Part shown: positions 2,784 through 52,362 of the stretch, piece after piece
Numbering within the stretch: position 1 is the first letter of the stretch
Layout of the letters: every line of letters begins with the position of its first letter
Assembly: GCA_019801415.1 (NCBI GenBank)
Contig: JAHVJD010000001.1
Span: 434,001-498,000, forward strand
Length of the DNA stretch: 64,000 nucleotides
DNA from: Nocardioides marinus
GTDB taxonomy: Bacteria; Pseudomonadota; Alphaproteobacteria; Rhodobacterales; Rhodobacteraceae
Reading direction: 5' to 3'
Program-made: the position numbers and the translations under genes
The notes under the pieces: model-generated
What the model saw: only the letters and a program-made list of their open reading frames with translations
The model's database searches: none
Told to the model about the DNA's origin: nothing

Positions 2784-4301
2784 TCAGTCTGCGTCTGCGA
2801 CACCCTTGGCGCGCAGCCGTGCCCGTCTGGCACGGTAGCTGGGCAGCACCACCAGGATCACTGCCAGCCCCAGCAGGCCAACCGTCATCGGCCGCTCGAG
2901 GATGAAGCCGAGCCCATCGTAGAGCTGCATCGAGCGGGCGAAGTTGTTCTCCAGCATCGACCCCAGGATGAATCCGATCAGCAGCGGCGCCAGCGGATAG
3001 TCGGCAAAGCGCAGCACGGTGGCGCAGATCCCCAGTCCCACCAGGATCAACAGCTCCGTGGCGTTGTTCTGGCCGATGTAGGCCCCCATCAGGGTGAAGA
3101 ACAGGATGAAGGGAATCAGGTAGTTGCGCGGCACCGCCAGAACCTTGGCGATATAGGGGATCAACGGCAGGTTCAGGATCAGAAGGATCAGGTTGCCGAG
3201 ATACATCGAGATGATCACCGCCCAGAAAATCTGCGGCTCATCCACCATCAGCCGCGGCCCCGGCGAGACATTCAGCGCGATCAGCGCACCCAGCAGGATC
3301 GCCGTGGTGCCAGAGCCGGGGATACCCAGCGTCAGGAGCGGCACGAAAGACCCGGTGCAGGCGGCATTGTTGGCGCTTTCCGGCGCCGCCAGCCCCTTGA
3401 CCGAGCCCTTGCCGAACTGCTCCTGCTCTTCCTTGGAGGCGATGTTGCGTTCCACCGCATAGCCCAAGAAGGAGGCGATGGTGGCCCCTGCCCCCGGCAG
3501 CACGCCGATCAGGAAGCCCTGGATCGACTGACGGCCGATTACCGGGGTGATCGCCCTGGCTTCCTCGCGGGTGATGCGCAGGTCCTTGATCTCGTTGCTG
3601 CCGCCTTCGGTGTTGGAGCGCGAGGGATCGAGCACCAGGTACATCGCCTCGGGCAGGGCGAACATCGCCATCGCCAGGGTGATGAAGCCAAAGCCGGACT
3701 GCAGGTCCATGACGCCCATGGTGAAACGCGGCATGTTGAACAGCGCGCCCTCGCCCACCGTGGCCATGATCAGCCCCAGAAGCGTCATCAACAGCGCCTT
3801 GCCCACCTGACCGGAGCCGGCGAAGGCGGCAATTGCCGACAGGCCCACCACCATCAACGCGAAATACTCGGCCGAATGGAACAGCAGCGCCACGCTGGCC
3901 AGTGCGGGGGCAAAGATCATCAGCAGGATCGCCCCGATTGTGCCGCCGGAGAAAGAGGCGATGGCGGCAACGGTCAGCGCCTTGCCCGCCTTGCCCTGAC
4001 GCGCCAGTGGGTAGCCGTCGAAGCTGGTCGCCACGGTTGAGGCAACGCCGGGCGCGTTGATCAGGATTGACGATGTCGAACCGCCGAAGATCGCGCCATA
4101 GTAGACACCCGCCAGCAGGATCAGCGCGGCAGAGGGATCACCGATGGAGATCGCAACCGGGATCATGATGGCGATGATCGACATCGGCCCGAGGCCGGGT
4201 AGCATGCCGATGAAGGTGCCGATCAGGCAGCCGCCGATCACCATCAACAGGTTTGTAAGAGAAAAGGCCGTTCCCAGGCCAATCATGATACCTTCGAGCA
4301 T
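2784..4301 (-). CDS. tctA: Tripartite tricarboxylate transporter, large permease TctA
   Basis: Large inner-membrane permease (505 residues, about 12 hydrophobic segments) of a TctCBA-type secondary transporter for citrate or other di/tricarboxylates. The family signature appears twice, once per half: GMLPGLGPM near residue 33 and LGIPGSGTTA in the second half, consistent with the two-fold inverted design of TctA proteins. Its length is normal for the family. It follows tctB by one base and ends at a strong terminator. TctC delivers substrate and TctB is the small partner. The exact substrate cannot be read from sequence. Confidence 0.93.
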   Translation of the reverse strand: MLEGIMIGLGTAFSLTNLLMVIGGCLIGTFIGMLPGLGPMSIIAIMIPVAISIGDPSAALILLAGVYYGAIFGGSTSSILINAPGVASTVATSFDGYPLARQGKAGKALTVAAIASFSGGTIGAILLMIFAPALASVALLFHSAEYFALMVVGLSAIAAFAGSGQVGKALLMTLLGLIMATVGEGALFNMPRFTMGVMDLQSGFGFITLAMAMFALPEAMYLVLDPSRSNTEGGSNEIKDLRITREEARAITPVIGRQSIQGFLIGVLPGAGATIASFLGYAVERNIASKEEQEQFGKGSVKGLAAPESANNAACTGSFVPLLTLGIPGSGTTAILLGALIALNVSPGPRLMVDEPQIFWAVIISMYLGNLILLILNLPLIPYIAKVLAVPRNYLIPFILFFTLMGAYIGQNNATELLILVGLGICATVLRFADYPLAPLLIGFILGSMLENNFARSMQLYDGLGFILERPMTVGLLGLAVILVVLPSYRARRARLRAKGVADAD

Positions 4302-29315: not shown

Positions 29316-29414
29316 GGGAAATCCTCTTTATCCAATTAAAACAATGCTCTTTCCCCTAGCCTACAGTCACCTCCCAGCGATGGAAAGCCCCACCATTTTG
29401 CTTCGCGCAGCATC

Positions 29415-29467
29415 GGGTCAAGGGGGGTGCCGAGACCGCAGGCCAGCGCGGCTCGCCCTTGACGCGG
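29415..29467. repeat. Partial copy (A) of the structured intergenic repeat
   Basis: It carries the boundary motif of module 1, GGGTCAAGGG (29415-29424) and CCCTTGACGCGG (29456-29467), seen in the three long copies at 41.3, 47.8 and 50.1 kb. The inner hairpins do not keep the GCA triloops, and modules 2 and 3 are not recognisable, so this looks like a decayed or minimal copy. The rest of the 335-bp gene-free stretch 29316-29650 holds only the terminator at 29604-29634. Confidence 0.65.
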
Positions 29468-29603
29468 AATGACGATCTCACGCGGGCACACACCTTAAGG
29501 GGAGCCCGGTTCCTAACCGCTGCTCTCGGCTCCGAAACAGCCTCTTTCGTCGGGGGGAAGCGCCCGCACCGCGCCCTTGCGCGGTGCCACGCCCAACGGT
29601 GAA

Positions 29604-29634
29604 GGGTTTTGCAAGAAACCCGCGAACCGGCGGG
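29604..29634 (-). terminator. Terminator candidate after the DUF1499 gene
   Basis: Two mutually overlapping hairpins: CCCGC/GCGGG (29619-29623 with 29630-29634), followed on the minus strand by TTTCTT, and GGGTTT/AAACCC (29604-29609 with 29616-29621). They begin 16 bases beyond the DUF1499 stop codon. Confidence 0.5.
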
Positions 29635-29650
29635 AGAACCACCGAGCAGA

Positions 29651-39954: not shown

Positions 39955-41274
39955 GTGACTGAATTTTCGACCATGGGGCTGCCCGAGCAGCTCCTCGCCC
40001 GGCTCAAGGACATGGGCCTCAACGATCCCACCCCGATCCAGGCCCGCGCCATCCCCCATGCGCTGAACGGCAAGGACGTGCTGGGCCTGGCCCAGACCGG
40101 TACCGGCAAAACCGCCGCCTTCGGCGTGCCGCTGGTGGCACGGATGCTGGAATACGGCCGCAAGCCCGCCGCTCATACCGTGCGCGGCCTGGTGCTGGCC
40201 CCCACCCGCGAGCTGGCCAACCAGATCGCCGACACCCTGAAGGGGCTGACTGAAGGCACCCCGATGAAGGTCGGCCTGGTGGTCGGCGGCGTTTCCATCA
40301 ACCCGCAGATCTCCCGCATCGCCAAGGGCACCGACATCCTGGTCGCCACCCCCGGCCGCCTGATCGACATCCTCGACCGCGGCGCGCTGGACCTCGGCTC
40401 CTGCGACTTCCTGGTGCTCGACGAGGCCGACCAGATGCTGGACCTCGGCTTCATCCACACCCTGCGCAAGATCGCGGCTCTGATCCCGTCCGAACGCCAG
40501 ACCATGCTGTTCTCGGCCACCATGCCCAAGCAGATGAACGAGATCGCCAATTCCTACCTGCAAAGCCCGGTCCGCATCGAGGTCTCGCCCCCGGGCAAGG
40601 CCGCGGACAAGATCACCCAGTCGGTTCACTTCATCGCCAAGGCGGAAAAGCTGAACCTCTTGAAGGAGCTTTTGGACACCCACAAGGACGAGCGCACGCT
40701 GGTCTTCGGGCGCACCAAATGGGGCATGGAAAAGCTGATGAAGACCCTGGACAAGGCAGGCTTTGCAGCTGCCGCGATCCACGGCAACAAATCCCAGGGC
40801 CAGCGCGAGCGCGCCCTTGCCGCCTTCAAATCCGGCGACATCAAGGTGCTGGTCGCCACCGATGTGGCCGCCCGCGGTCTTGACATCCCGGACGTGAAAT
40901 ACGTCTACAACTACGAGCTGCCGAACGTGCCGGATGCCTATGTCCACCGCATTGGCCGCACCGCCCGTGCGGGCAAGGACGGCGCCGCCGTGGCGTTCTG
41001 CGCCCCGGATGAGATGGATGAGCTGAAGGCGATCCAGAAGGTGATGAAGCTGACCATCCCCGTGGCCTCCGGCCGCGCCTGGGAGGCAATGCCCGATCCC
41101 GCGGCCCCTGCGGGCAAACCGGGCGGCAAGCCCGGCGGACGTCGCGGCGGTCCGCGTCGCCGGGGCGGTGGCGGCCAGGGAGGCCACGGTGCCCAGGGCG
41201 GCCAGAACGCCAGACCGCAGGGCGCCAAGCCCGGCGGCCAGCGCCGCCGCAGCCAGAAGCAGCGCGCCCGCTGA
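39955..41274 (+). CDS. DEAD-box RNA helicase (RhlE-like)
   Basis: A 439-residue RNA helicase. Core motifs: Q motif (NDPTPIQARAIP), Walker A AQTGTGKTAA, PTRELANQ, TPGRLID, DEAD, SATMP, VFGRTKWG, HRIGRTARAG. A Gly/Arg/Pro-rich tail (about 385-439) binds RNA in relatives. I choose GTG 39955, preceded by AAAGGA; an ATG at 39973 is possible. It acts in ribosome assembly or RNA decay, often at low temperature. Its stop is followed within 12 bases by structured repeat copy B. Confidence 0.92.
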   Translation: MTEFSTMGLPEQLLARLKDMGLNDPTPIQARAIPHALNGKDVLGLAQTGTGKTAAFGVPLVARMLEYGRKPAAHTVRGLVLAPTRELANQIADTLKGLTEGTPMKVGLVVGGVSINPQISRIAKGTDILVATPGRLIDILDRGALDLGSCDFLVLDEADQMLDLGFIHTLRKIAALIPSERQTMLFSATMPKQMNEIANSYLQSPVRIEVSPPGKAADKITQSVHFIAKAEKLNLLKELLDTHKDERTLVFGRTKWGMEKLMKTLDKAGFAAAAIHGNKSQGQRERALAAFKSGDIKVLVATDVAARGLDIPDVKYVYNYELPNVPDAYVHRIGRTARAGKDGAAVAFCAPDEMDELKAIQKVMKLTIPVASGRAWEAMPDPAAPAGKPGGKPGGRRGGPRRRGGGGQGGHGAQGGQNARPQGAKPGGQRRRSQKQRAR

Positions 41275-41285
41275 TCGCGCCCCAT

Positions 41286-41564
41286 CCGCCAGCGCCGGGT
41301 CAAGGGTCCCGCAGGGACCGCGCGGCACGCGCGGCCTGCCCTTGACGCGGTTCTGGCGGATCACACACTTGCAATGGCGCTGACGGGCAGACCTGCCCGT
41401 CAGCGCCTCTCAGCAAAAAATCCATGGCCAGATGAGCGGCGCGGAGCGGCGGCAATTGTTCCGCAACCAGCCTCCTGTGCCCCCCTTGCGCTGCGCAGCA
41501 GCGCCGGGCCCAAGCCTGTCAGGGTGGTTCAGGCGCCGCCTGAAACACCCGCGGGCGCGGGAGC
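41286..41564. repeat. Structured intergenic repeat, long copy B
   Basis: Fills the 323-bp gene-free stretch 41275-41597. Module 1 (41286-41359): outer stem CCGCCAG/CTGGCGG plus GTCAAGGG/CCCTTGAC closes two hairpins with GCA triloops (41305-41319 and 41318-41334). Module 2 (41376-41407): perfect 14-bp stem, GACC loop, followed by TCTCAGCA. Module 3: hairpin with GCA loop (41488-41504), then a CGGGCCCAAG stretch, a bulged hairpin (41522-41550) and GCGGGCGCGGGAG. Copies C and D have the same order with different but complementary stem sequences. Confidence 0.8.
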
Positions 41565-41597
41565 CCCTCTCCCCCGCCCCACACCGCCTTGAACGTT

Positions 41598-42302
41598 TCA
41601 CACCGCCTGGAAATCCGCCCAGACCGGCAGATGGTCCGAGGCCACATGCGCAGGCCGTGCGCCATGCACCCCATGCGCCACCGCCTTCAGCCGGTGGCAA
41701 TGGGCGATGCGGTCCAGCGCGCCCAGCGGCCGCAACGCCGGAAAGCTGGCCTTGCGCGGCAGGAAGGTCAGGGAAGGCGCGATATGCTCCAGCACCGGCG
41801 CGCGGGACCATTCGTTGAAATCCCCCGCCAGCACCACCGCCGCATCATCGGCCTTGGCGGCGCGGGCCAGCGCGCGCATCTGCTCGCGCCGGGCGCGCCC
41901 TGTCAGCCCCAGATGCGCACCGATCACCCGCAGCGGTCCCAGCGGCGTATCCAGCCGCACCCAGACCGCGCCGCGCGGCTCCAGCCCCGGCAGCGTGATG
42001 TGGCCCTTGTCCGTCAGCTCGACCGCGCCGCGGTAGAGGACCGCATTGCCATGCCAGCCCAAAGAGCCCGCACCGCCCAGGTCCGCGGCTTGCCAGCCGG
42101 TTTCCTCGACCAGGAACGGCGGCAGCGCCGCAGGCCGCGGCGGCAGCCGCTTGTCGGCCTCCTGCAGGACCGCGACCTGCGCGCCCAGCCGCTCCAGCAC
42201 CTGCAGGATACGCTCGGGCCGCCGTCGCATGTCCATGCCGACGCATTTCTGAATGTTATAGGTCGCGATCCGCAACCCGTTCCGGGGTGGATGATCCGGC
42301 AT
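41598..42302 (-). CDS. Endonuclease/exonuclease/phosphatase family protein
   Basis: A 234-residue member of the EEP fold. Catalytic motifs: ATYNIQKCVG near the N-terminus, LQEADKR (metal Glu), GAHLGL, LAGDFNEW and the late SDHLPVW. It has no signal peptide or membrane helix. Family members are metal-dependent nucleases or phosphodiesterases for lipids or nucleotides; the substrate is unknown. The 283-bp gap to the next gene holds divergent promoters but no feature I can name with confidence. Confidence 0.85.
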   Translation of the reverse strand: MPDHPPRNGLRIATYNIQKCVGMDMRRRPERILQVLERLGAQVAVLQEADKRLPPRPAALPPFLVEETGWQAADLGGAGSLGWHGNAVLYRGAVELTDKGHITLPGLEPRGAVWVRLDTPLGPLRVIGAHLGLTGRARREQMRALARAAKADDAAVVLAGDFNEWSRAPVLEHIAPSLTFLPRKASFPALRPLGALDRIAHCHRLKAVAHGVHGARPAHVASDHLPVWADFQAV

Positions 42303-42585
42303 CTGCGCCCTCCGCTGTCCTGCCGCCAGATTGACCCGTCCAGCGCCGCCTTACAAGCAGATCGGGCCGCCTTGGCTGGCCCAGTTCCTGCCGCACCGCT
42401 GGACACGAACGGCGTTCCGGTGCAAGTCTGGCGCATGGATCCCACCGCTCAGACAACCGGCCCGCAGGCCAGCATCCGAATTACCATCCCGGCCTGAACC
42501 GCCGGGCCGGGTCACCCTGTCTGAACACTTTCTATCCCACCTCCTATGCAAAGTCGGCGCACCGTGCCGCACGCGGGGTCCTTCC

Positions 42586-43095
42586 ATGACTTCTTTCCAC
42601 CCGACTTCCCACCCGACGCTCCACATGTTCTGCGGCAAGATCGCCGCGGGCAAATCCACTCTGGCGGCTCAGCTTGCCCGCCAGCCCGGCACGCTCCTGA
42701 TCGCCGAGGACCGCTGGCTCGCGGCGCTGTTTGCCGATCAGCTCCGCACCGGCGCCGACTATCTGCGCTGCAGCGGTCGGCTGCAATCCATCATGGCCCC
42801 GCATGTCGCGGCGCTGCTGGACAGCGGCCTGTCGGTGGTGCTGGATTTTGCCGCCAACACGCGCCAGCAGCGGCACTGGCTGCGCGGCCTCGCCAGCCGC
42901 AGCGGCCTGCGCCACCAGATGCACGTGCTGCTGCCGCCGGATGCGGTCTGCCTCGAACGGCTGCGCAGCCGCAACGCAAGCGGGGATCACCCCTTTGCCG
43001 CAACCGAGGCGCAGTTCCACCAGTTTGCCACGCACTTCCAGCCGCCCGCTGCGGATGAAGGCTTTGACCTTGTCTACCACGATCAGCCGGGCTGA
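42586..43095 (+). CDS. P-loop ATPase/kinase-like protein
   Basis: A 169-residue protein with a Walker A motif CGKIAAGKSTLA near residue 16, a possible Walker B at SVVLDFAANT, and an LID-like Arg-rich segment LRSRNASGD. It belongs to the AAA_33/zeta-toxin-like kinase group, often annotated AAA family ATPase. It may phosphorylate a small molecule. Start 42586 is chosen because homologues begin just before the P-loop; the open frame runs 85 codons upstream. Convergent with selO. Confidence 0.8.
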   Translation: MTSFHPTSHPTLHMFCGKIAAGKSTLAAQLARQPGTLLIAEDRWLAALFADQLRTGADYLRCSGRLQSIMAPHVAALLDSGLSVVLDFAANTRQQRHWLRGLASRSGLRHQMHVLLPPDAVCLERLRSRNASGDHPFAATEAQFHQFATHFQPPAADEGFDLVYHDQPG

Positions 43096-43109
43096 GGCGG
43101 ACCGGCGGC

Positions 43110-44528
43110 TCAGGTGCCGCAGAAGGTCGCCTGCACCACTTCCTCCGGCGCGGGCGGGCGCTGCAGGTCTGCGTGCTCCGGCTGGTCCTCATAGGGGCGC
43201 GCCAGCACCGTATTCAGCCGGTGGAAGGGCGCGAAATCCCCGGCCACCGCGCTGGCAATCATCTCCTCGATGCGGTGGTTGCGCGGGATGAAGGCCGGGT
43301 TGGTGCGGCGCATCAGCGCCTGCGGGTCCGGCTCGCCCTCCAGCCGCGCCTGCCAGCCTTCGGCCCAGCTGTCGAAGGCCGCCGGATCGGTGAACTGGTC
43401 TCGCGCATCGCCCGTGCCCAGCGCCCGGAACGTGTTGGTGAAATCGCTCTGGTTCTGCGCCATCCGCTCCAGCAGGCCGGTGACCAGCTCCAGGTCGCCC
43501 GCGCGCGCCGAGGTGATCCCCAGCTTGGCCCGGAACCGCGCCAGCCAGGCCTCCTCCAGGAGCTTCGGCATCGCGTGAACGATCTCGGTGGCTTCCTCGA
43601 CACCGGCCTGCGGATCTTCCAACTGCTGGATCAGCGCGGTGGCCAGTTGGGCGAGGTTCCACACCGCGATATTGGGCTGGCTGGCGTAGGCATAGCGCCC
43701 GCCCCGGTCGATCGAGGAAAACACCGTATTCGGATGATACACATCCATGAAGGCGCAAGGCCCGTAGTCGATCGTCTCGCCCGAGATGGAGGAATTGTCC
43801 GTATTCATCACCCCGTGGATGAACCCCACCGACATCCAGGCCGAGATCAGCGCCACCTGGGCGTCGCGCACCGCCCGCAGCAGCCCCATCGGCCCCTCGG
43901 CCTGCGGATAATGGCGGGCAATCGCATACTCCGTCAGCTGCCGCAGGCTGTCGGTGTCGCCGCGCGCGGCAAAGACCTGGAACGTGCCCACCCGCAGATG
44001 GCTGGCCGCCACCCGCGTCAGCACCGCACCGGGCAGGCCGCCCTCGCGCCACACGGTCTCGCCCGTGGCCACCGCCGCCAGCGCGCGGGTGGTGGGGATG
44101 CGCAAGCTGTGCATCGCCTCGCTTACCACGTATTCACGCAGCACCGGTCCCAGCCAGGCACGCCCGTCGCCGCCCCGCGAATAGGGCGTGCGCCCCGAAC
44201 CTTTCAGCTGGATGTCGCGGCGGATGCCGTCGCTCCCCACCACCTCGCCCAGCAGGATCGCGCGCCCGTCGCCCAGCTGCGGATTGTAGGTGCCAAACTG
44301 GTGCCCGGCATAGAGCTGCGCCAGGGGCTCGCCCCCCTCGGGCACAATGTTGCCGCCAAAGACCTGCGCCATCTCGGCCGCGTCCCCGGTGCTGATGCCC
44401 AGCACCGCGGCCAGGTCTTCGTTAAAGGCCAGCAGGTCCGGCGCCTTCACCGGCACCGGCGGCAGTTTGCTGTGGAAGGCCCCAGGCAGGGCGGCGTATG
44501 TATTGTCGAACGGGATCATCAGTGTCAT
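43110..44528 (-). CDS. selO: Protein adenylyltransferase SelO (YdiU/UPF0061)
   Basis: A 472-residue pseudokinase-fold enzyme that AMPylates proteins and takes part in redox homeostasis in other bacteria. Marks: [57 protein letters not shown] (active-site Asn/Asp), and the C-terminal [14 protein letters not shown] region ending in a cysteine near the C-terminus (FCGT), as is common in SelO. Start 44528 ([12 protein letters not shown]) fits homologues. Divergent from a cupin gene over 57 bp. Confidence 0.93.
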
Positions 44529-44585
44529 GGCCCAAACATATGCCCGGAACCGGGATTTACCAGCACCAAACGGGAGATACCCCAG

Positions 44586-45002
44586 ATGACCGCGGACCAG
44601 ATCATTGAGTACCTCGGCCTGCAGCAGCACCCCGAGGGCGGCTGGTACAAGGAAACCTGGCGCGCCGAAAATGACGGCCGCCCCACCGGCACCTGCATCT
44701 ATTTCCTGCTGAAGGGCGATGAGCGCAGCCACTGGCACCGCGTCGATGCGGCGGAAATCTGGCTCTACCACGCCGGAGCACCGCTGGTGCTGTCGATGGC
44801 GGCAAGCGATGCAGGCCCGGCACTGGACCATCTGCTAACGCCCGATCTGACCAAGGGCGCACCGCAGCTGGTGGTGCCCGAGGGCCACTGGCAGGCAGCC
44901 CGCAGCACCGGCGACTACACGCTGGTCAGCTGCACGGTTTCACCCGGCTTCCAGTTCGAGGGCTTTGAGCTGGCAGCGCCCGGTTTCGACATCCCGCGCT
45001 GA
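44586..45002 (+). CDS. Cupin domain-containing protein (DUF985)
   Basis: A 138-residue single-domain cupin of the DUF985 type: [45 protein letters not shown] (metal-binding His pair) and [21 protein letters not shown] are diagnostic. Start 44586 follows a GGGAG stretch. Such proteins are usually sugar-epimerase-like folds without known reaction. The same frame is open far upstream antisense to selO, which I regard as chance. Confidence 0.88.
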
Positions 45003-45077
45003 CCTGTCGGCTGGCGCGGCCCCGTCACGCGGACCATGGCGAACTTTTCAAGAAGCTCTCGCCCCAGCTGCCGCCTG

Positions 45078-46238
45078 TCACGCCTCGCCGGGCACGCTGA
45101 CCACGCCGCCGCCGACACAGGCGCTGACGCCCGTGGTGCCCGGGGCCGAGGTCGGCAGCCCCCGCGCCACCCGCACCGCCAGATGGGCAAAGGCCTGCGC
45201 CTCCAGCATGTCACCGTCCAGCCCCACATCCTCAACCGGCTTCACCGGGCAGTCCAGCGACACCCGCAGCATCTCCATAAGCACCGGGTTATGCCGCCCG
45301 CCGCCAGTGGCCAGCACCATTTCGGGCGGCTCCGGGCAATGCTCCATCCCCTGCGCCACCCCGGCGGCGCACATCGCCGTCAGCGTGGCCGCGGCATCGG
45401 CATCAGACAGTTCCTTGACCAAGGAGACCATCTCGGCAAAATCGTTCCGGTCCAGTGACTTGGGCGGCATTCGCGCGAAGTAGGGCTCGGCCAGGAACAA
45501 CTCCAGCGCGCCGGTCTCCACGGTGCCGGACCGCGCCACCTTGCCGTCCACGTCCCACGGAATGCCCAGCCGCTCCTGCACCAGATCATTGACCGGCGCA
45601 TTGGCCGGGCCGGTGTCAAAGGCAATCAGCGCGCCCGCGTCCTCGGGACGTTCAAACCGCGGATCGACATAGGTGAGGTTGCCCACCCCGCCGAGGTTCA
45701 GAAAGCACAAAGGCCGGGTCGCACCGATGTATTTCGCGCAGGCGAAATGAAAGAACGGCGCCAGCGGCGCGCCCTCACCGCCCATCGCCACGTCATCGCT
45801 GCGGAAATCCCAGACCACGGGCTTGCCTAGGCATTCTGCCAGCGCCGCGCCGTCGCCCACCTGCAGCGTGCCCTGGCGGCGCGGCGCATGGGCCAGGGTC
45901 TGACCGTGAAAGCCAATGATCTCGGCCTCGCTGAACCCCGCCAGCACCTCCGCATGGACGCGGTCGCAGACCTCCGCCGCAGCCTCGACCTCCGGCCCGG
46001 TCCATTTGCCGAGCCCCGCACGCAGCACCTCGCGCTCTGCCGCGGTGTATTCGCGGTAGCGGCTCTTGCCAAAACTCTGGATGCGCTCGCCGTCGGTCAC
46101 CACCTCCGCCGCATCCACCCCGTCCAGCGAGGTGCCGCTCATCGCGCCCAAGGCCCGCACCATCCCAGTCTTTGGGCCAGCCTTCGGGCCCGTCTTTGCG
46201 CCTGTCCTTGCGCCCGTCCTTGCGATGGCTCTGCCCAT
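45078..46238 (-). CDS. anmK: Anhydro-N-acetylmuramic acid kinase, with repeat-bearing N-terminus
   Basis: A 386-residue murein-recycling kinase that opens and phosphorylates anhydro-MurNAc. Core motifs: [13 protein letters not shown] (phosphate loop), [30 protein letters not shown] and LATGGGRHN. The usual family start would be at M26 (46163). The start at 46238, with an AAGGGG site 8 bases upstream, adds 25 residues made of a four-residue repeat ([20 protein letters not shown]) from a 12-bp tandem repeat. Which start is used is open. NagZ, acting earlier in the same pathway, is encoded at 61848. Confidence 0.92.
46163..46228 (-). repeat. 12-bp tandem repeat at the anmK 5' end
   Basis: About five degenerate 12-bp units in frame, encoding a (A/P)(R/K)(T/A)G period just ahead of the conserved AnmK domain. 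Such repeats can change number by slippage, which here would alter only the extension, because the unit is a multiple of three. Confidence 0.65.
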
Positions 46239-46381
46239 CCGCCTGCCCCTTCACAGCCTCCGGGCCTGTCCTGCCCGTTCGCGCGGATATTACCGCGCAT
46301 AAATTGCCGGGAAAACAGGTTCCAACCCGCGCGGATGCGATTTATAGGGGCTAGGTGCAAACCAAGAGACCGAGGCATGTC

Positions 46382-47635
46382 ATGACCTACACTCCCAAAT
46401 CGGATTTCATCGCTGTAATGATGGAACGCGGCTATCTGGCCGACTGCACCGATTATCAGGGCCTGGACGAGGCACTGCTGAAGGGGGTTCAGCCTGCCTA
46501 TATCGGTTATGACGCCACCGCGCAGTCGCTGCACGTGGGGCACCTTCTGAACATCATGATGCTGCGCTGGCTGCAAAAGACCGGCCACAAGCCGATCACC
46601 CTGATGGGCGGCGGCACCACCAAGGTGGGCGACCCCTCGTTCCGCTCGGACGAGCGCCCGCTGCTGGGCCCCGAACAGATCGACGCCAATATCGCCGGCA
46701 TGAAAAAGGTCTTCGCGAACTACCTGACCTACGGCGACGGCGAAAACGACGCCATCATGCTCAACAACGCCGAGTGGCTCGACAATCTGAACTACCTCGA
46801 GTTCCTGCGCGACATCGGCCGCCATTTCTCGGTGAACCGGATGCTGTCGTTCGAGTCGGTGAAATCGCGCCTCGACCGCGAGCAGTCGCTGTCGTTCCTG
46901 GAATTCAACTACATGATCCTGCAGGCCTATGACTTCATGGAGCTGAACCGCCGCTACGGCTGCATCCTGCAGATGGGCGGCTCGGACCAGTGGGGCAACA
47001 TCGTCAACGGCATCGACCTCACCCGCCGGGTGATCGACCACGAGGTCTACGGCCTCACCTCGCCGCTTCTGACCACCTCGGACGGCCGCAAGATGGGCAA
47101 GTCCCAGGGCGGCGCGATCTGGCTCAACGGCGAGATGCTCTCGCCGTATGAGTTCTGGCAGTTCTGGCGCAACACCACCGACGCCGACGTCGGCCGCTTT
47201 CTCAAGCTCTACACCGAGCTGCCGGTCGAGGAATGCGAGCGCCTCGGCGCGCTGCAAGGCTCCGAGATCAACGAGGGCAAGGTGATCCTCGCCAATGAGG
47301 TGACCAAGCTCTTGCACGGCGCCGAGGCCGCGGCGGCAGCCGAAGCCACCGCCCGCGAAGTATTTGAAAAGGGCGGCATCGGTGACGACCTGCCCACGCT
47401 GACCCTGTCGCCTGCGGATCTGGGCGACGGCATCTCGATCGTGCAGCTGATCGTGAAGTCGGGGCTGGCGAAATCCGGCAAGGACGCCAAGCGCCTGATC
47501 GCCGAGAACGGCGCCAAGCTGGATGACCAGCCGCTGACCGACGCAGGCCTGATGATCGACGCAGGCGCGCTCACCTCGCCGATCAAGCTCAGCGCAGGCA
47601 AGAAGCGCCACGCGCTGGTGCAGCTGGCCGACTGA
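46382..47635 (+). CDS. tyrS: Tyrosyl-tRNA synthetase
   Basis: A 417-residue class I aminoacyl-tRNA synthetase. The HIGH motif is HVGH in [11 protein letters not shown], the KMSKS motif is KMGKS in [18 protein letters not shown] lines the tyrosine pocket and an S4 RNA-binding domain ends the protein (about 345-415). The start at 46382 matches homologues (MTYTPKSDF). A strong terminator follows. Confidence 0.97.
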
Positions 47636-47660
47636 GCCACCGCCCTCACCACCCGTCAAA

Positions 47661-47684
47661 GGGAGCCTTCGGGCTCCCTTTTTT
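47661..47684 (+). terminator. Terminator of tyrS
   Basis: GGGAGCC/GGCTCCC (47661-47667 with 47672-47678) around a TTCG loop, then six T residues. A classic intrinsic terminator 25 bases after the stop. Confidence 0.92.
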
Positions 47685-47835
47685 CATGCTGTTCCAGCCC
47701 CTCCCGCCCATTCCAGTGCCATCCAGATGGAACGTCATGGTTGGGCCGGGCAGCACGCTCCCGCGTGCTGCGGCAGCTCTGCCCAATCAATGTCTCCGCC
47801 CACGGCAGCGGGCACAGCGCCCACTCCTCCCCGCG

Positions 47836-48057
47836 CTGGCCGGGTCAAGGGCGGCAAAGCCGCCGTGCGCAGCACGGTCCACCCTTGACGCGGCCAGGGC
47901 GACCATAAACTGGTGCTGGCGCTGAAGGGCAGAGCTGCCCTTCAGCGCCTCTCAGCAGATCTTCCCGCTGCGCCAGCAGCCCGCCGCGCAGCGGCGCCCG
48001 GCCCAAGGCCGCAAAAGATGCTCTGGCGCAGCCAGAACATCTGCGGGCGCGGGAGCC
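47836..48057. repeat. Structured intergenic repeat, long copy C
   Basis: Lies in the 454-bp stretch 47636-48089, after the tyrS terminator. Module 1 (47836-47897): outer stem CTGGCCG/CGGCCAG plus GTCAAGGG/CCCTTGAC encloses hairpins GGCGGC-AAA-GCCGCC (47850-47864) and CCGTGC-GCA-GCACGG (47863-47877). Module 2 (47918-47949): 14-bp perfect stem with GAGC loop, then TCTCAGCA. Module 3: CGCCGC-GCA-GCGGCG (47982-47996), a CCCGGCCCAAGG stretch, and CCGCA/TGCGG closing a hairpin with GCA loop (48009-48046), then GCGCGGGAG. The 47685-47835 part shows nothing further that I can name. Confidence 0.8.
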
Positions 48058-48089
48058 TCTCCCCGCGCAAAGCAGCCACGCAACGCCAC

Positions 48090-48245
48090 CTAAAACAGCA
48101 GCCAATCCGCCAGCGTCAACAGCAGGAAAACTGGCACCGACAATGCCGCCGCCAGCAGCACCGCTGCCGCCTTGGTCACCCGCGGCGCCGACGCTGACTG
48201 GCCCAGAACTTCACTTCGCTTTTTCATCGCTTTATTAACCATCAT
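48090..48245 (-). CDS. Small single-helix membrane protein (about 51 aa), tentative
   Basis: A short minus-strand ORF with three in-frame ATGs at its head (48245, 48242, 48227). It has a basic N-terminus (KAMKKRSEVL), a polar stretch and one clear C-terminal membrane helix (AAAVLLAAALSVPVFLLLTL) ending DWLLF. Codon third positions are GC-rich as in real genes nearby. A GGA stretch lies about 10 bases before 48245. It begins right beside repeat copy C. The family is unknown; it could also be chance. Confidence 0.45.
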   Translation of the reverse strand: MMVNKAMKKRSEVLGQSASAPRVTKAAAVLLAAALSVPVFLLLTLADWLLF

Positions 48246-48273
48246 TTAGGTTTCCAGCGCGTTAATATGGAGC

Positions 48274-49209
48274 ATGTTCGACCAACCGCCGGAACCCGCC
48301 GCAACCATCACCGCACGCCCAGCCGCGCTGCAGCAATCCTCGGAGTTTGCCTGCGCCCTCGGCGCCTGCAGCCAAACCCCGATTTGGCTGGTCGGCAGCC
48401 TCCAATCCCCCGACGTGTTGGTGCTGCGCCGCCGCTTTGCGGGCGGGCTGCACTCCGCCATGATCAACCGTGCACCAGTTGACGATCTTCCGGGACTTAT
48501 CGCCCGGTTGCGCGCAACGGGCCTTGGCCGCACGCCAATGATCCTGACCCCCGAAACCGCCACTGCGGACCTGGCCCGTCACGGCGCTGTGCCGCTGATG
48601 AGCCCCGCCCATGTTGCCCTGCTGGACCTCACCCCGGATCCGCAGCAGCGCCGCGCCGCGCTGCATCAGAAATGGCGCAACCGGCTGAACCACGCCGCCG
48701 CCCAAGGCCTGCGCCTGACCCGCCAGAACATGCCGGACGCCCCCAACCACTGGCTGCTCGCCGCCGACAGCGCCCAGCAGGCGGCGCGCGGCTACCGCAG
48801 CTGGCCGGTGCCGCTGACGCTGGCCTATGCGCGGCAGAACAAGGGCCGCGCCAAGCTGTTCCAGGCCTTCGAGGGCCGCGAGCCCGTCGCCGCCATGCTG
48901 ATCCTGACCCACGGCAGCGGCGCAAACAGGGCCGCCACCTATCACATCGCCCATTCCACCGCCCGCGGCCGCCATCTCAGCGCCCATAACCTCCTGATGT
49001 GGGAGGCAATGTCCTGGCTCGCCGCCAAGGGCGTCCGGCAGCTCGACCTCGGGCTGATCAACACAGAGGACGCCGCAGGCCTTGCCCGGTTCAAGCTCGG
49101 CACCGGCGCGCGCCTGCACCGCCTGGGCGGCACCTGGGCGCTCTGGCCGCGGCTGGGCCGCCTGCTGCGCCCGCTCGCCGCGCTGGACCGCCGACTGATG
49201 CAGGCCTAG
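48274..49209 (+). CDS. FemAB/GNAT-like acyltransferase domain protein
   Basis: A 311-residue cytosolic protein. The C-terminal half (about 120-290) fits the GNAT/FemAB-like (BioF2-type) fold, with KWRNRLNHAAAQGL, FEGREPVAAMLILTHG, YHIAHSTARGRHLSAHNLLMWEAMSWLAAKGVRQLDLGLIN and FKLGTGARLHRLGGTW. The N-terminal part is less conserved. The reaction is not known; relatives transfer amino acids or acyl groups to cell-wall or other acceptors. Divergent from the tentative small membrane ORF. Confidence 0.75.
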   Translation: MFDQPPEPAATITARPAALQQSSEFACALGACSQTPIWLVGSLQSPDVLVLRRRFAGGLHSAMINRAPVDDLPGLIARLRATGLGRTPMILTPETATADLARHGAVPLMSPAHVALLDLTPDPQQRRAALHQKWRNRLNHAAAQGLRLTRQNMPDAPNHWLLAADSAQQAARGYRSWPVPLTLAYARQNKGRAKLFQAFEGREPVAAMLILTHGSGANRAATYHIAHSTARGRHLSAHNLLMWEAMSWLAAKGVRQLDLGLINTEDAAGLARFKLGTGARLHRLGGTWALWPRLGRLLRPLAALDRRLMQA

Positions 49210-49228
49210 CGGCAAACCGCCGCGACGC

Positions 49229-49258
49229 TGGACAGGGAAGCTCCTCCCGGATTATATG
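49229..49258 (+). promoter_or_regulatory. Promoter of the SDR gene
   Basis: TGGACA (49229-49234), 18-base spacer, TATATG (49253-49258), giving a start near 49265. The -10 box overlaps the palindrome TGAACACATGTTCA, so a bound repressor would block it. Confidence 0.55.
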
Positions 49259-49285
49259 AACACATGTTCAGATAATCGGGAGGAG
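49241..49285. promoter_or_regulatory. 45-bp inverted repeat spanning operator and ribosome-binding site
   Basis: CTCCTCCCG (49241-49249) pairs with CGGGAGGAG (49277-49285), enclosing nearly complementary arms and the exact palindrome TGAACA-CA-TGTTCA (49257-49270). The right arm is the ribosome-binding site of the SDR gene (ATG 49294). The inner palindrome looks like a TetR-family operator. In RNA the whole would hide the ribosome-binding site if the transcript starts upstream of it. Confidence 0.6.
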
Positions 49286-49293
49286 ACCCGCCC

Positions 49294-50049
49294 ATGAAAC
49301 TCGCAGACACCGCCGCCGTCATCACCGGCGCCGCCTCCGGCCTCGGCGAGGCCACCGCCCGCCATTTCGCCGAACAAGGCGCGCAGGTCACCATTCTGGA
49401 CCGCGACGCGGAGCGCGGTCCGCAGGTGGCCAAAGAAATCGGCGGCCACTTCGCCGAAACCGATGTCACGGACGAAGCCTCGGTGCAGGCCGCCATCGCC
49501 CATGCCGCCGACAAGATGGGCAAGATCACCGCCTGCGTGAACTGCGCCGGCATCGCCATCGGCGCCAAGACTGTGGGCAAGGACGGCCCGCATCCGCTGG
49601 ACGCCTACAAGCGCACCATCGACATCAACCTCGTCGGCACTTTCAACGTCGCCCGCCTCGCCGCCGCCGAAATCGCCAAGAACGCTCCCGACGCGGACGG
49701 CGCCCGCGGCGTCATCATCAACACCGCCTCCATCGCCGCCTTCGACGGCCAAAAGGGCCAGGCCGCCTATGCCGCCTCCAAGGGCGGGGTTGCGGGGATG
49801 TGCCTGCCGATGGCGCGCGATCTGGCCTCGCTCGGCATCCGGGTGATGACCATCGCGCCGGGCATCTTCATGACCCCGATGCTGGCCGGGCTGCCCGAAG
49901 AGGTGCAGCAGCAGCTCGCCGCCGACGTGCCCAACCCGGCCCGCTTGGGCGATCCGCGCGAATTTGGCCGCCTCGCCGCATTCATCGTCGAAATGGGCTA
50001 TCTGAACGGCGAGGTCATCCGCATCGACGGCGCTCTGCGCATGCGCTGA
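49294..50049 (+). CDS. SDR family 3-hydroxyacyl-CoA dehydrogenase-like oxidoreductase
   Basis: A 251-residue short-chain dehydrogenase. NAD-binding TGAASGLGEA (11-20), NAG motif NCAGIAIGAK, catalytic Ser in NTASIAAFDGQKG and YAASK. The sequence is close to the type-2 3-hydroxyacyl-CoA dehydrogenase (HSD17B10) group, which acts in beta-oxidation of fatty or branched-chain acyl-CoA. A strong GGGAGGAG site lies 8 bases before the start, inside a large palindrome. Its stop is followed after 8 bases by structured repeat copy D. Confidence 0.92.
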   Translation: MKLADTAAVITGAASGLGEATARHFAEQGAQVTILDRDAERGPQVAKEIGGHFAETDVTDEASVQAAIAHAADKMGKITACVNCAGIAIGAKTVGKDGPHPLDAYKRTIDINLVGTFNVARLAAAEIAKNAPDADGARGVIINTASIAAFDGQKGQAAYAASKGGVAGMCLPMARDLASLGIRVMTIAPGIFMTPMLAGLPEEVQQQLAADVPNPARLGDPREFGRLAAFIVEMGYLNGEVIRIDGALRMR

Positions 50050-50057
50050 CTCGCCCG

Positions 50058-50275
50058 CCGCGGATTGCGGGTCAAGGGCGGCAAAGCCGCCGTGCGCAGC
50101 ACGGGTTCACCCTTGACGCGCAATCCGCGGCAGACACACTCGATATGGCGCCTTGCGGGGCACATTTGCCCCGCAAGCGCTTCTCAGCAGCTATCTTCAG
50201 CGTTGCGCAGCAACGCCCGGCCCAAGGCCGCACAAAGGTTTTCCGGCGCAGCCGGAACACCTGCGGGCGCGGGAG
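50058..50275. repeat. Structured intergenic repeat, long copy D
   Basis: In the 504-bp gene-free stretch 50050-50553. Module 1 (50058-50130): outer stem of 12 bp (CCGCGGATTGCG with 50119-50130) plus GTCAAGGG/CCCTTGAC, enclosing the same two hairpins as copy C. Module 2 (50147-50180): TTGCGGGGCA/TGCCCCGCAA with CATT loop, then TTCTCAGCA. Module 3: GCGTTGC-GCA-GCAACGC (50200-50216), CCGGCCCAAGG, and CCGCA/TGCGG closing TTCCGGC-GCA-GCCGGAA (50228-50266), then GCGCGGGAG. The rest, 50276-50490, is featureless apart from an AT-rich patch at 50445-50490. Confidence 0.8.
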
Positions 50276-50490
50276 TGCTATGCCTGCGCCGCCCCCCCCG
50301 CTCACCCTAGAAAGCCAAACTGTTGCAGCAAGAGCGCCCGCCGGTGTTGCACGCGCCTGCGCGCCGCCGTCCGCGGATCCGTGCCAATGGTCCGCCAAAG
50401 ACAAGAAGACAAACGTAAACCCCGGCGCCCGCGACGTTTACCCAGCAGATATGTTTATTGATAAATCACAAAGCCTTACGACAGTGTCTT

Positions 50491-50524
50491 TGACCCATTG
50501 TTTCGCGCGCGAAACAATGGGTCA
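50491..50524. promoter_or_regulatory. Perfect 34-bp palindrome downstream of uup
   Basis: The 17-base half TGACCCATTGTTTCGCG (50491-50507) is followed at once by its exact reverse complement (50508-50524). It lies 29 bases past the uup stop. No T tract follows on either strand, so it is not a typical intrinsic terminator, though a 15-bp hairpin in RNA would still be strong. See findings for alternatives. Confidence 0.6.
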
Positions 50525-50553
50525 GCCTTGCTGCCTTACCCGGCCGAGCGACA

Positions 50554-52362
50554 TCAGCCCCCGGCCTTCTCCTCCAAGAGCAGCCATTCTTCCTCGGCCG
50601 CGGCCAGCTTTTCCTGCCGTTCGACCAAGGCCTCGGTGGCCTTCTTGAACTTGACCGGCTCGCGGGTGAACAGCTCCGGGTCCGCCATCAGCTCCTGCAG
50701 CTTGCCGATCTCCGCCTCCAGCCGCTCGATCTCGCCGGGCAGCGCGTCCAGCCGGTGTTTTTCCTTGAAGCTCAGGCCGTCCTTGGGCTGGCTCTCCTGC
50801 TTGGGCTTGGGCTTGGCGGGTTTTGCCTTCTCGGGCTTTGCCTCGCCCTCCAGCGGGCCGCGCTGCGCCAGGTAGTCGCTCCAGCCGCCCGCATAGGCGG
50901 TGACCCGGCCATTGCCCTCCATCGCGATGGTGGTAGTGGCCACCCTGTCCAGGAAATCGCGGTCGTGGCTGACCAGCAGCACGGTGCCGTCGTAGCCGTC
51001 CAGCAGTTCCTGCAACAGGTCCAGCGTCTCCACGTCCAGATCGTTGGTAGGTTCGTCCAGGACAAGCAGGTTCGACGACCGCGCCATCAGCCGCGCCAGC
51101 AGCAGCCGCGCCTTCTCGCCGCCCGACAAGGACCGCACCGGCGCCCGCGCCTGCCGTTCATCGAACAGGAATTCCTTCAGATAGCCGACCACATGCTTGG
51201 GCTGGCCGCGCACCATCACCTGGTCGGCCTTGCCGGAAATCCCCAGCAGCGGGTCCGAGGTCAGGTTCTCCCACAGGCTCGCATCACCATCCAGCTGGTC
51301 ACGGGTCTGGTCAAACAGCGCAATCTCCAGGTTGGTGCCCAGCTGCACCGCGCCCGCATCCGGCTCTTCCATGCCCAGCAGCATCTTCAGAAGCGTCGTC
51401 TTACCCGCCCCGTTGGGGCCGACAAAGGCCACCCGGTCGCCGCGCTGCACCTTCAGCGAGAAATCCCTGACGATCGCCTTGTCACCGAAAGCCTTGCTCA
51501 GCCCCTCGACTTCGATCACCTTGCGGCCCGACTTCGGCCCCGCTTCCAGCGCCATCTCGGCGGTGCCCTGCCGCTTGATCTGGCTGGCGCGCTCCGCCTT
51601 CAGATCCTGCAAGGCCCGCACCCGGCCCATGTTGCGCTTGCGCCGGGCCGAGATGCCCTCCACCGCCCAGCGGCTTTCCGATTTGATCAGCCGGTTCAAC
51701 TTGTGGCGCTGCTGGTCTTCCTCTTCCCAGATCTTGTCGCGCCAGGCCTCGAAATGCTCGAACCCCTTTTCCTGGCGGCGCACCTGGCCGCGGTCCACCC
51801 ACAGGGTGGCGCGGGTCAAGGCGCGCAGAAACGCCCGGTCGTGCGAGATCAGCACAAAGGCGGCGCGGGTGGATTTCAGCTCCTCCTCCAGCCAGGTGAT
51901 CGCCTCGATGTCCAGGTGGTTGGTCGGCTCGTCCAGCAGCATCAGGTCCGGCGCCTCGGCCATCAGCTTGGCCAGCGCGGCACGCCGCCGCTCGCCGCCC
52001 GAGGCGGTTTCCACCGGCCGCGCCGGATCGAACTTCAGCCCCTCGCCCGCACGCTCCACCTTGTAAAGCTCGCCCGGTTCCAGCCCGCTGGCGGCGAAAT
52101 CACCCAAGGTAGCAAACCCCTCCATCTTGGGGTCCTGCTCCATGTAGCCGACGGAGCGGCCGGGCGGCACCACGATCGAGCCACTGTCAGCTTCGACAAT
52201 GCCCGCCATCACCTTCATCAAGGTGGATTTACCCGACCCGTTGCGGCCCACCAGCGCCACCCGGTCGCCCGGCTGCACCACCAGATCAAGATCGGCGAAA
52301 ACCGGATCGCCCCCGAAGGTGAGGGAAATGCCGGACATCTGCAAAAGAGGAATACGTGCCAT
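50554..52362 (-). CDS. uup: ABC-F family ATPase Uup
   Basis: A 602-residue soluble ABC-F protein: first domain GRNGSGKST (about 38-46), signature TASGGERRRAAL, Walker B LMLLDEPTNHLDI; second GPNGAGKTT, SLSGGEKARLLLA, LLVLDEPTNDLD; then a Lys/Pro-rich hinge (about 510-530) and a C-terminal coiled coil (about 535-600) that in Uup binds DNA. It is the second ABC-F in the window, distinct from the one at 11237. It follows olsB by 63 bp. Confidence 0.92.
   Translation of the reverse strand: MARIPLLQMSGISLTFGGDPVFADLDLVVQPGDRVALVGRNGSGKSTLMKVMAGIVEADSGSIVVPPGRSVGYMEQDPKMEGFATLGDFAASGLEPGELYKVERAGEGLKFDPARPVETASGGERRRAALAKLMAEAPDLMLLDEPTNHLDIEAITWLEEELKSTRAAFVLISHDRAFLRALTRATLWVDRGQVRRQEKGFEHFEAWRDKIWEEEDQQRHKLNRLIKSESRWAVEGISARRKRNMGRVRALQDLKAERASQIKRQGTAEMALEAGPKSGRKVIEVEGLSKAFGDKAIVRDFSLKVQRGDRVAFVGPNGAGKTTLLKMLLGMEEPDAGAVQLGTNLEIALFDQTRDQLDGDASLWENLTSDPLLGISGKADQVMVRGQPKHVVGYLKEFLFDERQARAPVRSLSGGEKARLLLARLMARSSNLLVLDEPTNDLDVETLDLLQELLDGYDGTVLLVSHDRDFLDRVATTTIAMEGNGRVTAYAGGWSDYLAQRGPLEGEAKPEKAKPAKPKPKQESQPKDGLSFKEKHRLDALPGEIERLEAEIGKLQELMADPELFTREPVKFKKATEALVERQEKLAAAEEEWLLLEEKAGG

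Follow-up and report, generated by a model that had tools for sequence, protein, structure and literature searches.

Intergenic mosaic elements of Rhizobium and Sinorhizobium combine separable modules. REP, BIME and REPIN sequences are extragenic, palindromic and dispersed repeats that are located 3′ of genes and form head-to-head dimers, according to PMC3733652. The same paper describes CGTC REPs, which are mostly alphaproteobacterial, lack a dedicated transposase, form head-to-head dimers and consist of a single stem of 8-9 bp, a loop of 4-5 nt, a CGTC tag and a CCA-like tail. It places them in every order of the Alphaproteobacteria; its main text makes no mention of Rhodobacter, Ruegeria, Roseobacter or Paracoccus. 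Passages of PMC12306157, PMC4809877, PMC5107571 and PMC12442346 name no repeat such as the one described here.

We analysed a 64,000-nucleotide stretch of DNA (the window) for which the first-pass annotation had reported a three-copy family of structured repeats (R1, R2 and R3) with three modules in fixed order. The shared architecture is present at these places (71% mean column identity in the alignment), and all described modules were found in the three stretches. In each, a boundary stem, GTCAAGGG/CCCTTGAC, encloses two hairpins; the outer stem extends ~10 bp past GTCAAGGG in a sequence that is copy-specific and still complementary. The second module is a 14-bp hairpin followed by TCTCAGCA, and the third consists of a GCA-loop hairpin, GGCCCAAG, a second hairpin with a GCA or GCC loop, and GCGGGCGCGGGAG. 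R1, R2 and R3 fold with z-scores of -7.5, -7.0 and -6.8, respectively, against dinucleotide shuffles, 0 of 200 shuffles being as good in each case. The three stretches are thus real and related, but the family is far larger than three and a fourth copy is present in the window itself. Likewise, the module order holds in R1-R3, but the set is not one unit: module 3 (C) was also found without modules 1 and 2, and the modules constitute two separable elements, AB and C. AB (134 nt, five helices) is built of a long stem that carries a conserved G.G mismatch and encloses two hairpins, followed by a second hairpin and by TCTCAGCA, which is conserved and unpaired. C (three helices) comprises a hairpin, GGCCCAA, a two-part stem and GCGGGAG. 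A composite of AB and C measures about 220 nt. The features in the window are as follows.

29404..29531, + strand: fourth composite, decayed AB (CM R1 28.1 bits, E 4.4e-4)
29566..29587, no strand assigned: fourth composite hp1, GCACCGCGC-CCTT-GCGCGGTGC (sequence)
29591..29636, + strand: fourth composite module C (pattern, gene distance; locus L083)
41282..41415, + strand: R1 module AB, with boundary stem, two hairpins, second hairpin and TCTCAGCA (CM R1 128.7 bits; fold)
41488..41504, no strand assigned: R1 hp1 (P1), GCGCTGC-GCA-GCAGCGC hairpin, palindromic on both strands (sequence, fold)
41507..41563, + strand: R1 module C, with GGCCCAA, P2b/P3 hairpin and GCGCGGGAG (pattern, gene distance)
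47701..47746, - strand: inverted solo copy of module C that faces R2, beyond the intrinsic terminator of tyrS (pattern)
47827..47957, + strand: R2 module AB (CM R1 131.7 bits)
47982..47996, no strand assigned: R2 hp1, CGCCGC-GCA-GCGGCG (sequence)
48001..48055, + strand: R2 module C (pattern)
50054..50189, + strand: R3 module AB (CM R1 124.7 bits)
50200..50216, no strand assigned: R3 hp1, GCGTTGC-GCA-GCAACGC (sequence)
50220..50275, + strand: R3 module C (pattern)

This genome has 12 strong AB copies, and 15 relatives within the genus have 10-22 apiece; across the order, 27 of 148 genomes contain AB. The C pattern gave 76 matches in this genome versus 9 for the reversed pattern. Copy number differs among genera, from background level up to 185 matches (genome G067), and subtypes are lineage-specific. 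Inverted C′-C pairs are present, some of them with a common hp1, making large palindromes. When the whole window was searched with 4227 Rfam families at gathering thresholds, only three tRNAs and Cis8_sRNA were returned, all elsewhere; R1 alone, searched with E up to 5, gave six matches, none near its own threshold. These Rfam results, and the literature searched, agree with the earlier statement that no named family fits. AB and C make up a large, apparently undescribed family of folded DNA/RNA elements in marine Rhodobacteraceae.

In AB, 93.7% of cells were paired versus 75.7 ± 0.6 when shuffled, and the covariation score was 0.439 versus 0.119 ± 0.008 shuffled and 0.04-0.08 with partners slid. 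For stem P2b of C, Watson-Crick pairs were present in 148, 142, 97 and 79 of 151, against permutation means of 95, 71, 41 and 36. Genome search and covariation check both upheld the family, with many copies beyond three and compensatory change that is strong in both AB and C.

Gene contexts were assigned with a simple codon-score caller trained on the window. AB copies were in convergent gaps in 54 of 92 cases and in divergent gaps in 2. The C context in this genome is based on 71 matches from loci, one of which (L121) yields two overlapping matches; 70 of the 71 lie outside called genes and one inside, and of these 70, 38 are in convergent gaps and 1 in a divergent gap. With the same simple caller, 4 of the 30 C copies from three further genera look divergent, which counts against a gene-end role. 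At R1, AB starts 8 nt past the stop of an RhlE-like helicase gene and C lies 34 nt before the stop of convergent gene 42302-41598; AB of R3 starts 5 nt past the SDR stop, and C of the fourth composite lies 14 nt before a convergent stop. In loci centred on elements, with the search limited to the first 130 or 170 nt, the distance from stop codon to CTCCCGC had a median of 28 nt over 49 gene ends (10-45 nt in 41 of the 49), and that to TCAAGG of AB was 21-26 nt (n=6). This position a short way downstream of stop codons, in most cases in convergent gaps, supports the suggestion of mRNA 3′ ends made in the first-pass annotation. A sense 3′-UTR orientation rule was considered and dropped: 56 of 70 C copies face a stop, but since 38 of these are convergent, hence uninformative, and the two orientations number 17 versus 13 in tandem gaps, no such rule is claimed.

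The tyrS gene has an ordinary terminator ahead of the elements, and hp1 and the other hairpins have no U-tract in their sequence; both count against a termination role at gene ends. A scan of 41250-50600 on both strands gave no terminator in R1-R3 attributable to the elements, the nearest (48112-48096) being outside R2. Intrinsic terminators accompanied 3 of 54 element-bearing ends versus 15 of 99 other ends, a weak trend only. The AB copy at betB-betA is reversed and lies within a co-directional gene pair, 12-18 nt ahead of the betA start, an odd spot for a terminator.

Orthologous R1 and R3 sites were sought via the flanking gene in 21 genomes of the genus, one of which (G127) has no endonuclease match. 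AB was recognisable, though sometimes damaged, in 19 of 19 relatives examined at the R1 site and in 20 of 20 at the R3 site. Among these 20, the boundary stem was missing in two, AB contained an insert in five and C was missing in two; at the tyrS site, in regions picked around AB matches, the copies of several relatives had decayed. Because copies decay at the R3 and tyrS sites, the elements are not essential. The first ortholog test used 15 regions picked around AB matches, and its counts (10/10, 8/8 and 7/7) are thus biased towards occupied sites; in five of these regions (L271, L275, L277, L278 and L279) all three sites were absent. AB also sits at betB-betA in other genera, and the R1 gene pair is kept without AB in two other genera. 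In a related genus (G039) the helicase/endonuclease slot has instead an intrinsic bidirectional terminator, as judged by eye, which favours a gene-end role; in G033 the convergent pair is kept with neither element nor T-run, which counts against it. The best reading is that AB/C elements are vertically kept. Selection has long preserved their paired stems and fixed boxes (G.G mismatch, TCTCAGCA, GGCCCAA and GCGGGAG) in unchanged positions.

The matching changes on the two sides of the stems point to a common function at gene ends. We tentatively favour, at a likelihood a little short of even, the view that in Rhodobacteraceae AB and C serve as REP/BIME-like mosaic elements marking gene 3′ ends and helping to set transcript ends. 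Once transcribed, AB/C would fold and fix the transcript end, either by aiding termination or through GC hairpins halting 3′ exonucleases, and converging transcripts would thereby be kept from running far into the neighbour gene. The central hairpin hp1 would be common to both directions, the outer modules serving one gene each. Since fixed boxes adjoin free stems, the arrangement suggests a trans-acting partner.

Possible, though on the unlikely side, is that AB/C are REP/BIME-like repeats at the DNA level, whose palindromes act as DNA (cruciform, or nucleoid-protein or gyrase site) in untranslated gaps, their gene-end placement being tolerated insertion. The two orientations in tandem gaps, the large palindromes built by inverted C′-C pairs, the lineage-specific copy numbers and subtypes, and hp1, in which G.T is not in excess over A.C (24 versus 33), all favour it. 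The conserved TCTCAGCA argues against it by being unpaired, as do P2b/P3 mismatches on one strand (190 purine-purine versus 35 pyrimidine-pyrimidine) and a surplus of G.T relative to A.C, both for solo C (71 versus 34) and for the outer stem of AB (69 versus 38), which indicate some single-strand asymmetry. Counting against a single strand are composite C (G.T 20 versus A.C 25) and hairpin 2 of AB (G.T 34 versus A.C 28; in 85 nonredundant copies, 9 purine-purine versus 43 pyrimidine-pyrimidine), and hp1 leans opposite to P2b/P3 (24 purine-purine versus 51 pyrimidine-pyrimidine). Alignment A5, itself fitted to the RNA model, totals G.T 79 versus A.C 43, and U-run terminators, a weak positive control for the strand test, gave 16 versus 12 (n=36). 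The purine excess could reflect sequence recognition instead of pairing, and, the element copies being related, p-values in this test are not probabilities. It is unlikely that AB/C are strand-specific RNA devices in which a putative protein binds fixed boxes and purine-rich internal mismatches and, with no U-tract involved, terminates transcription or sets the RNA 3′ end, thereby shielding convergent genes against antisense read-through.

It appears improbable that a family of small RNAs acting in trans is transcribed across AB, hp1 and C. In favour of this reading, TTGA is followed, mostly 12-16 nt on, by an ACACT-like box ~7 nt ahead of hairpin 2. The spacer is however too variable (10-20 nt), TTGAG occurs in 62 of 124 copies and the box is missing in 28 of 124, and a promoter inside AB was not accepted. 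Moreover, a promoter scan of 41250-50600 gave none in R1-R3, where a U-run terminator and an Rfam sRNA match are also absent. We consider it very improbable that AB/C are nonautonomous mobile elements (MITEs) spread by a transposase elsewhere. Copies are dispersed and multiple, and their number varies widely among genera, but positions are the same across a genus and, at betBA, across genera, and boxes are constant while stems vary among copies. The Y1 tyrosine transposase (PF01797) gave 0 matches in this genome (5 of 14 control genomes were positive), the AB pattern 0 in viral contigs and R2-like DNA 0 in phages. Five plasmid records contain part of AB (three; Phaeobacter, Leisingera) or part of C only (two; Tritonibacter). 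Recent mobility is disfavoured by the orthologous positions and the viral-contig and phage negatives.

With tens of copies per genome, strong compensatory change, conserved positions and no Rfam match, a structured element of this sort in a much-studied marine clade clearly merits RNA 3′-end mapping. It could reveal how GC-rich alphaproteobacteria, in gaps where two genes face each other and U-run terminators are scarce, bring transcripts to an end. Like intrinsic bidirectional terminators, AB/C occupy the slot between convergent genes, but they have no U-tract, are much longer and contain conserved boxes. They share with CGTC REPs an alphaproteobacterial host range, the lack of a dedicated transposase and head-to-head pairs, and with REPs in general the placement downstream of genes; unlike the single stem of CGTC REPs, C has three helices, and of the 77 C matches at own-genome loci 9 have CGTC next to CTCCCGCC, too few to assign C that tag. 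No RAYT-type transposase was found in this genome, unlike for RAYT-linked REPs. As in REP, BIME and REPIN sequences (GTAG-tagged, RAYT), AB/C are extragenic, palindromic, multi-copy and arranged as inverted dimers, but they differ in forming a ~220-nt composite with a five-helix AB and fixed internal boxes. In their modular layout AB/C are like the Rhizobium and Sinorhizobium mosaic elements.

The composite repeats located after the RhlE-like helicase (R1), tyrS (R2) and SDR (R3) genes share one common architecture, as revealed by an alignment of the three stretches, and each folded better than shuffled sequences, with z values of -7.5 to -6.8. On the plus strand AB is followed by a central hairpin, hp1 or P1, and then by C:

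AB boundary stem: up to ~20 bp, inner part GTCAAGGG/CCCTTGAC, with two hairpins inside
AB, 3' of the boundary stem: ACACT-like single-stranded box, then a second hairpin around GGGCA...TGCCC, then TCTCAGCA
hp1: GC hairpin of 6-10 bp between AB and C
C: GGCCCAA, stem P2b, hairpin P3 and GCGGGAG, in that order

Past GTCAAGGG, the sequence of the outer stem differs from copy to copy and its complementarity is kept. C is frequently present solo or as inverted pairs, some of which have one hp1 in common. Genomes G067 and G032 harbor genome-specific C subtypes in which the inner boxes (GGGAGGAG...GACGACGG) hardly change and the P3 stems vary freely; tandem G.A mismatches may be present.

In alignment A5, containing 51 AB sequences from 50 loci, 93.7% of the cells were paired (75.7 ± 0.6 when shuffled) and the covariation score was 0.439, versus 0.119 ± 0.008 in shuffles and 0.04-0.08 when partners were slid; these figures lean upward because the alignment was fitted to the AB model. 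The AB stem was also tested independently of the model, using 85 nonredundant copies out of 124 with the outer stem in fixed register. Outer-stem positions d3 to d7 formed Watson-Crick pairs in 84, 75, 51, 61 and 47 of these 85 copies (permutation means 61, 34, 23, 21 and 23), no covariation was observed at d0 (33 versus 33), and a G.G mismatch at d1 was kept in 82. For C, 151 nonredundant copies out of 218 were used; the counts for the five positions of P2b were 148, 55, 142, 97 and 79 (means 95, 32, 71, 41 and 36), the second position being G.G in 79 copies. Runs of pairs in P3 and P1 much exceeded shuffled lengths.

In the plus reading, P2b and P3 together contained 190 purine-purine versus 35 pyrimidine-pyrimidine mismatches, and G.T exceeded A.C in solo C copies (71 versus 34), with no excess in composite ones (20 versus 25). 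The opposite lean was observed for hp1 (24 purine-purine versus 51 pyrimidine-pyrimidine; G.T 24 versus A.C 33). Hairpin 2 of AB had 9 purine-purine versus 43 pyrimidine-pyrimidine mismatches, and G.T versus A.C counts were 34 versus 28 in this hairpin and 69 versus 38 in the outer stem. These sequence counts hint that part of the structure may fold in the plus reading; no strand is assigned because the control was weak and the orientation to genes was mixed.

Beyond the three copies of the first-pass annotation, BLAST detected many further sites in the source genome. A covariance model of AB trained on 10 copies identified 12 strong copies there, the training copies among them, and a weak 13th (29404-29531 in the window) that is followed by an hp1 and a C. 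In the same genus, 15 genomes contained 10-22 AB copies each, and no copy was detected in 10 genomes belonging to other families of the same class. Across the order, 148 genomes were searched with stricter filters; 27 of them (source genome counted), from 17 of 72 genera, had AB. The AB hairpin pattern occurred at 80 or more loci and, although it left out the boundary stem, the AB model matched 78 of the 80 listed (E 4.2e-8 or better). The other two are in MAGs titled Acidiferrobacteraceae and Ruminococcus; by title, the listed loci are otherwise mostly from Leisingera, Phaeobacter, Pseudophaeobacter, Tritonibacter, Shimia, Roseivivax and other Rhodobacteraceae. The C pattern matched in 84 of 120 family genomes, most at background level, and exceeded background (9 or more matches, and no fewer than two for each match of the reversed-pattern control) in 14, the source genome counted. 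Matches versus control were, for example, 76 versus 9 in the source genome, 185 versus 10 in G067, 58 versus 8 in G007, 52 versus 8 in G032, 48 versus 11 in G005, 28 versus 6 in G082 and 26 versus 1 in G058. The AB pattern had no matches in viral contigs and R2 had none in phages; R2 was partially matched in five plasmid records, all from roseobacters.

Gene contexts were obtained with a codon-score caller, which recovered the genes around R1-R3. Outside genes, the 70 C copies of the source genome were convergently flanked in 38 cases, in tandem in 17 and 13 (the two orientations) and divergently in one; one flank of the remaining copy is unknown. Of 30 C copies from three other genera, 20 were faced by the gene to their right, 14 with the stop within 30 nt, and four appeared divergent by this caller. 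Among 92 AB copies, 54 had convergent flanking genes, 16 and 10 lay in tandem gaps, 2 had divergent neighbours and 10 had a missing flank; for 48, C was matched strictly no more than 350 nt away. Within search ranges of 130 and 170 nt, stop codons were close to the elements: the median distance to CTCCCGC was 28 nt (49 gene ends), and distances to TCAAGG ranged from 21 to 26 nt (n=6).

When regions were picked around AB hits, AB or a remnant was present at 10/10 helicase-endonuclease (R1), 8/8 tyrS and 7/7 SDR orthologous sites. By eye, many stem pairs were altered on both sides between orthologs. At the tyrS site, AB is clearly decayed at loci L273 and L270, L272 has a diverged C, and in L276, L268, L266 and L269 C is missing or cut short. 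Because these regions had been chosen, the R1 and R3 sites were retested from the flanking gene in 21 genus genomes. AB was present at R1 in all 19 relatives having the endonuclease (E 9e-7 or better), with strict C in 17 and variant C in L342 and L359. At R3 it was present in 20/20 relatives (E 1.7e-4 or better, L379 being the weakest), and L371 and L372 retain little of the boundary stem; C was strict in 17, diverged in L370 and not seen in L366 or L380. A palindromic insert of ~60 nt (like GGAAACGCTCCGGGGGAGCGTTTCGCTTGCGAACGGGCGGAGC), which may be a small mobile repeat in its own right, lies inside the R3-site AB of L366, L369, L374, L377 and L380, and a similar stretch is found at the helicase site in L268 and L276.

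The widest positional conservation found for AB is in the betB-betA gap. The source genome has a copy there (L080, 1501-1635), betB and betA being NCBIfam equivalogs above cut-off, and so do L127, L145, L154, L171 and L181 outside the genus, where flanking proteins are 66-79% identical to its own (one over 46 residues only). This AB is in reverse orientation, 12-18 nt upstream of the betA start. No AB or C was detected in the first 330 nt of the helicase-endonuclease slot at 29 endonuclease loci of other genera, three of which include the helicase. In G039 (L312) the slot holds a bidirectional intrinsic terminator, in G033 (L316) it is short and contains a GC hairpin, and in G027 (L313) it is a longer gap.

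Other features in the window are:

3133-3260, plus strand: Rfam RF02646 Cis8_sRNA, 115 bits, described from Ruegeria (Rfam)
~47658-47684, plus strand: tyrS intrinsic terminator AAAGGGAGCC-TTCG-GGCTCCCTTTTTT, with an inverted solo C immediately after
~48090-48230, minus strand: small ORF of ~45 codons, ending just past R2

By eye, the small ORF is conserved in relatives and membrane-like. In L267, L269, L270, L272, L273 and L276 a plus-strand gene (start like MSKTERQKMQAGEWY), which we take to be acetyltransferase-like, directly follows the C of the R3 orthologue, accompanied by a TTGACA-like box; in the source genome the 280 nt preceding the ABC-F stop show no such gene.

These data are more readily accounted for by a vertically kept 3'-end element than by a recently mobile one or by a small RNA of the classical type. 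Position and structure suggest that the elements may form transcript ends, and intrinsic terminators show a weak trend, being present at 3 of 54 element-bearing gene ends versus 15 of 99 others. Counting against this role are the lack of a U-tract, the reverse orientation of the betBA copy, the terminator that tyrS already has, and the copies that have decayed after tyrS and the SDR gene. In Rfam no family reached its threshold for these repeats, also when R1 alone was searched at a lax threshold, and searches of open-licence papers brought up no account of a repeat of this kind from Rhodobacteraceae. AB and C differ from RAYT REPs and from CGTC REPs in the defining features tested for each. 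REP/BIME elements are the closest in working: AB and C likewise lie 3' of genes, are palindromic and occur as inverted pairs.
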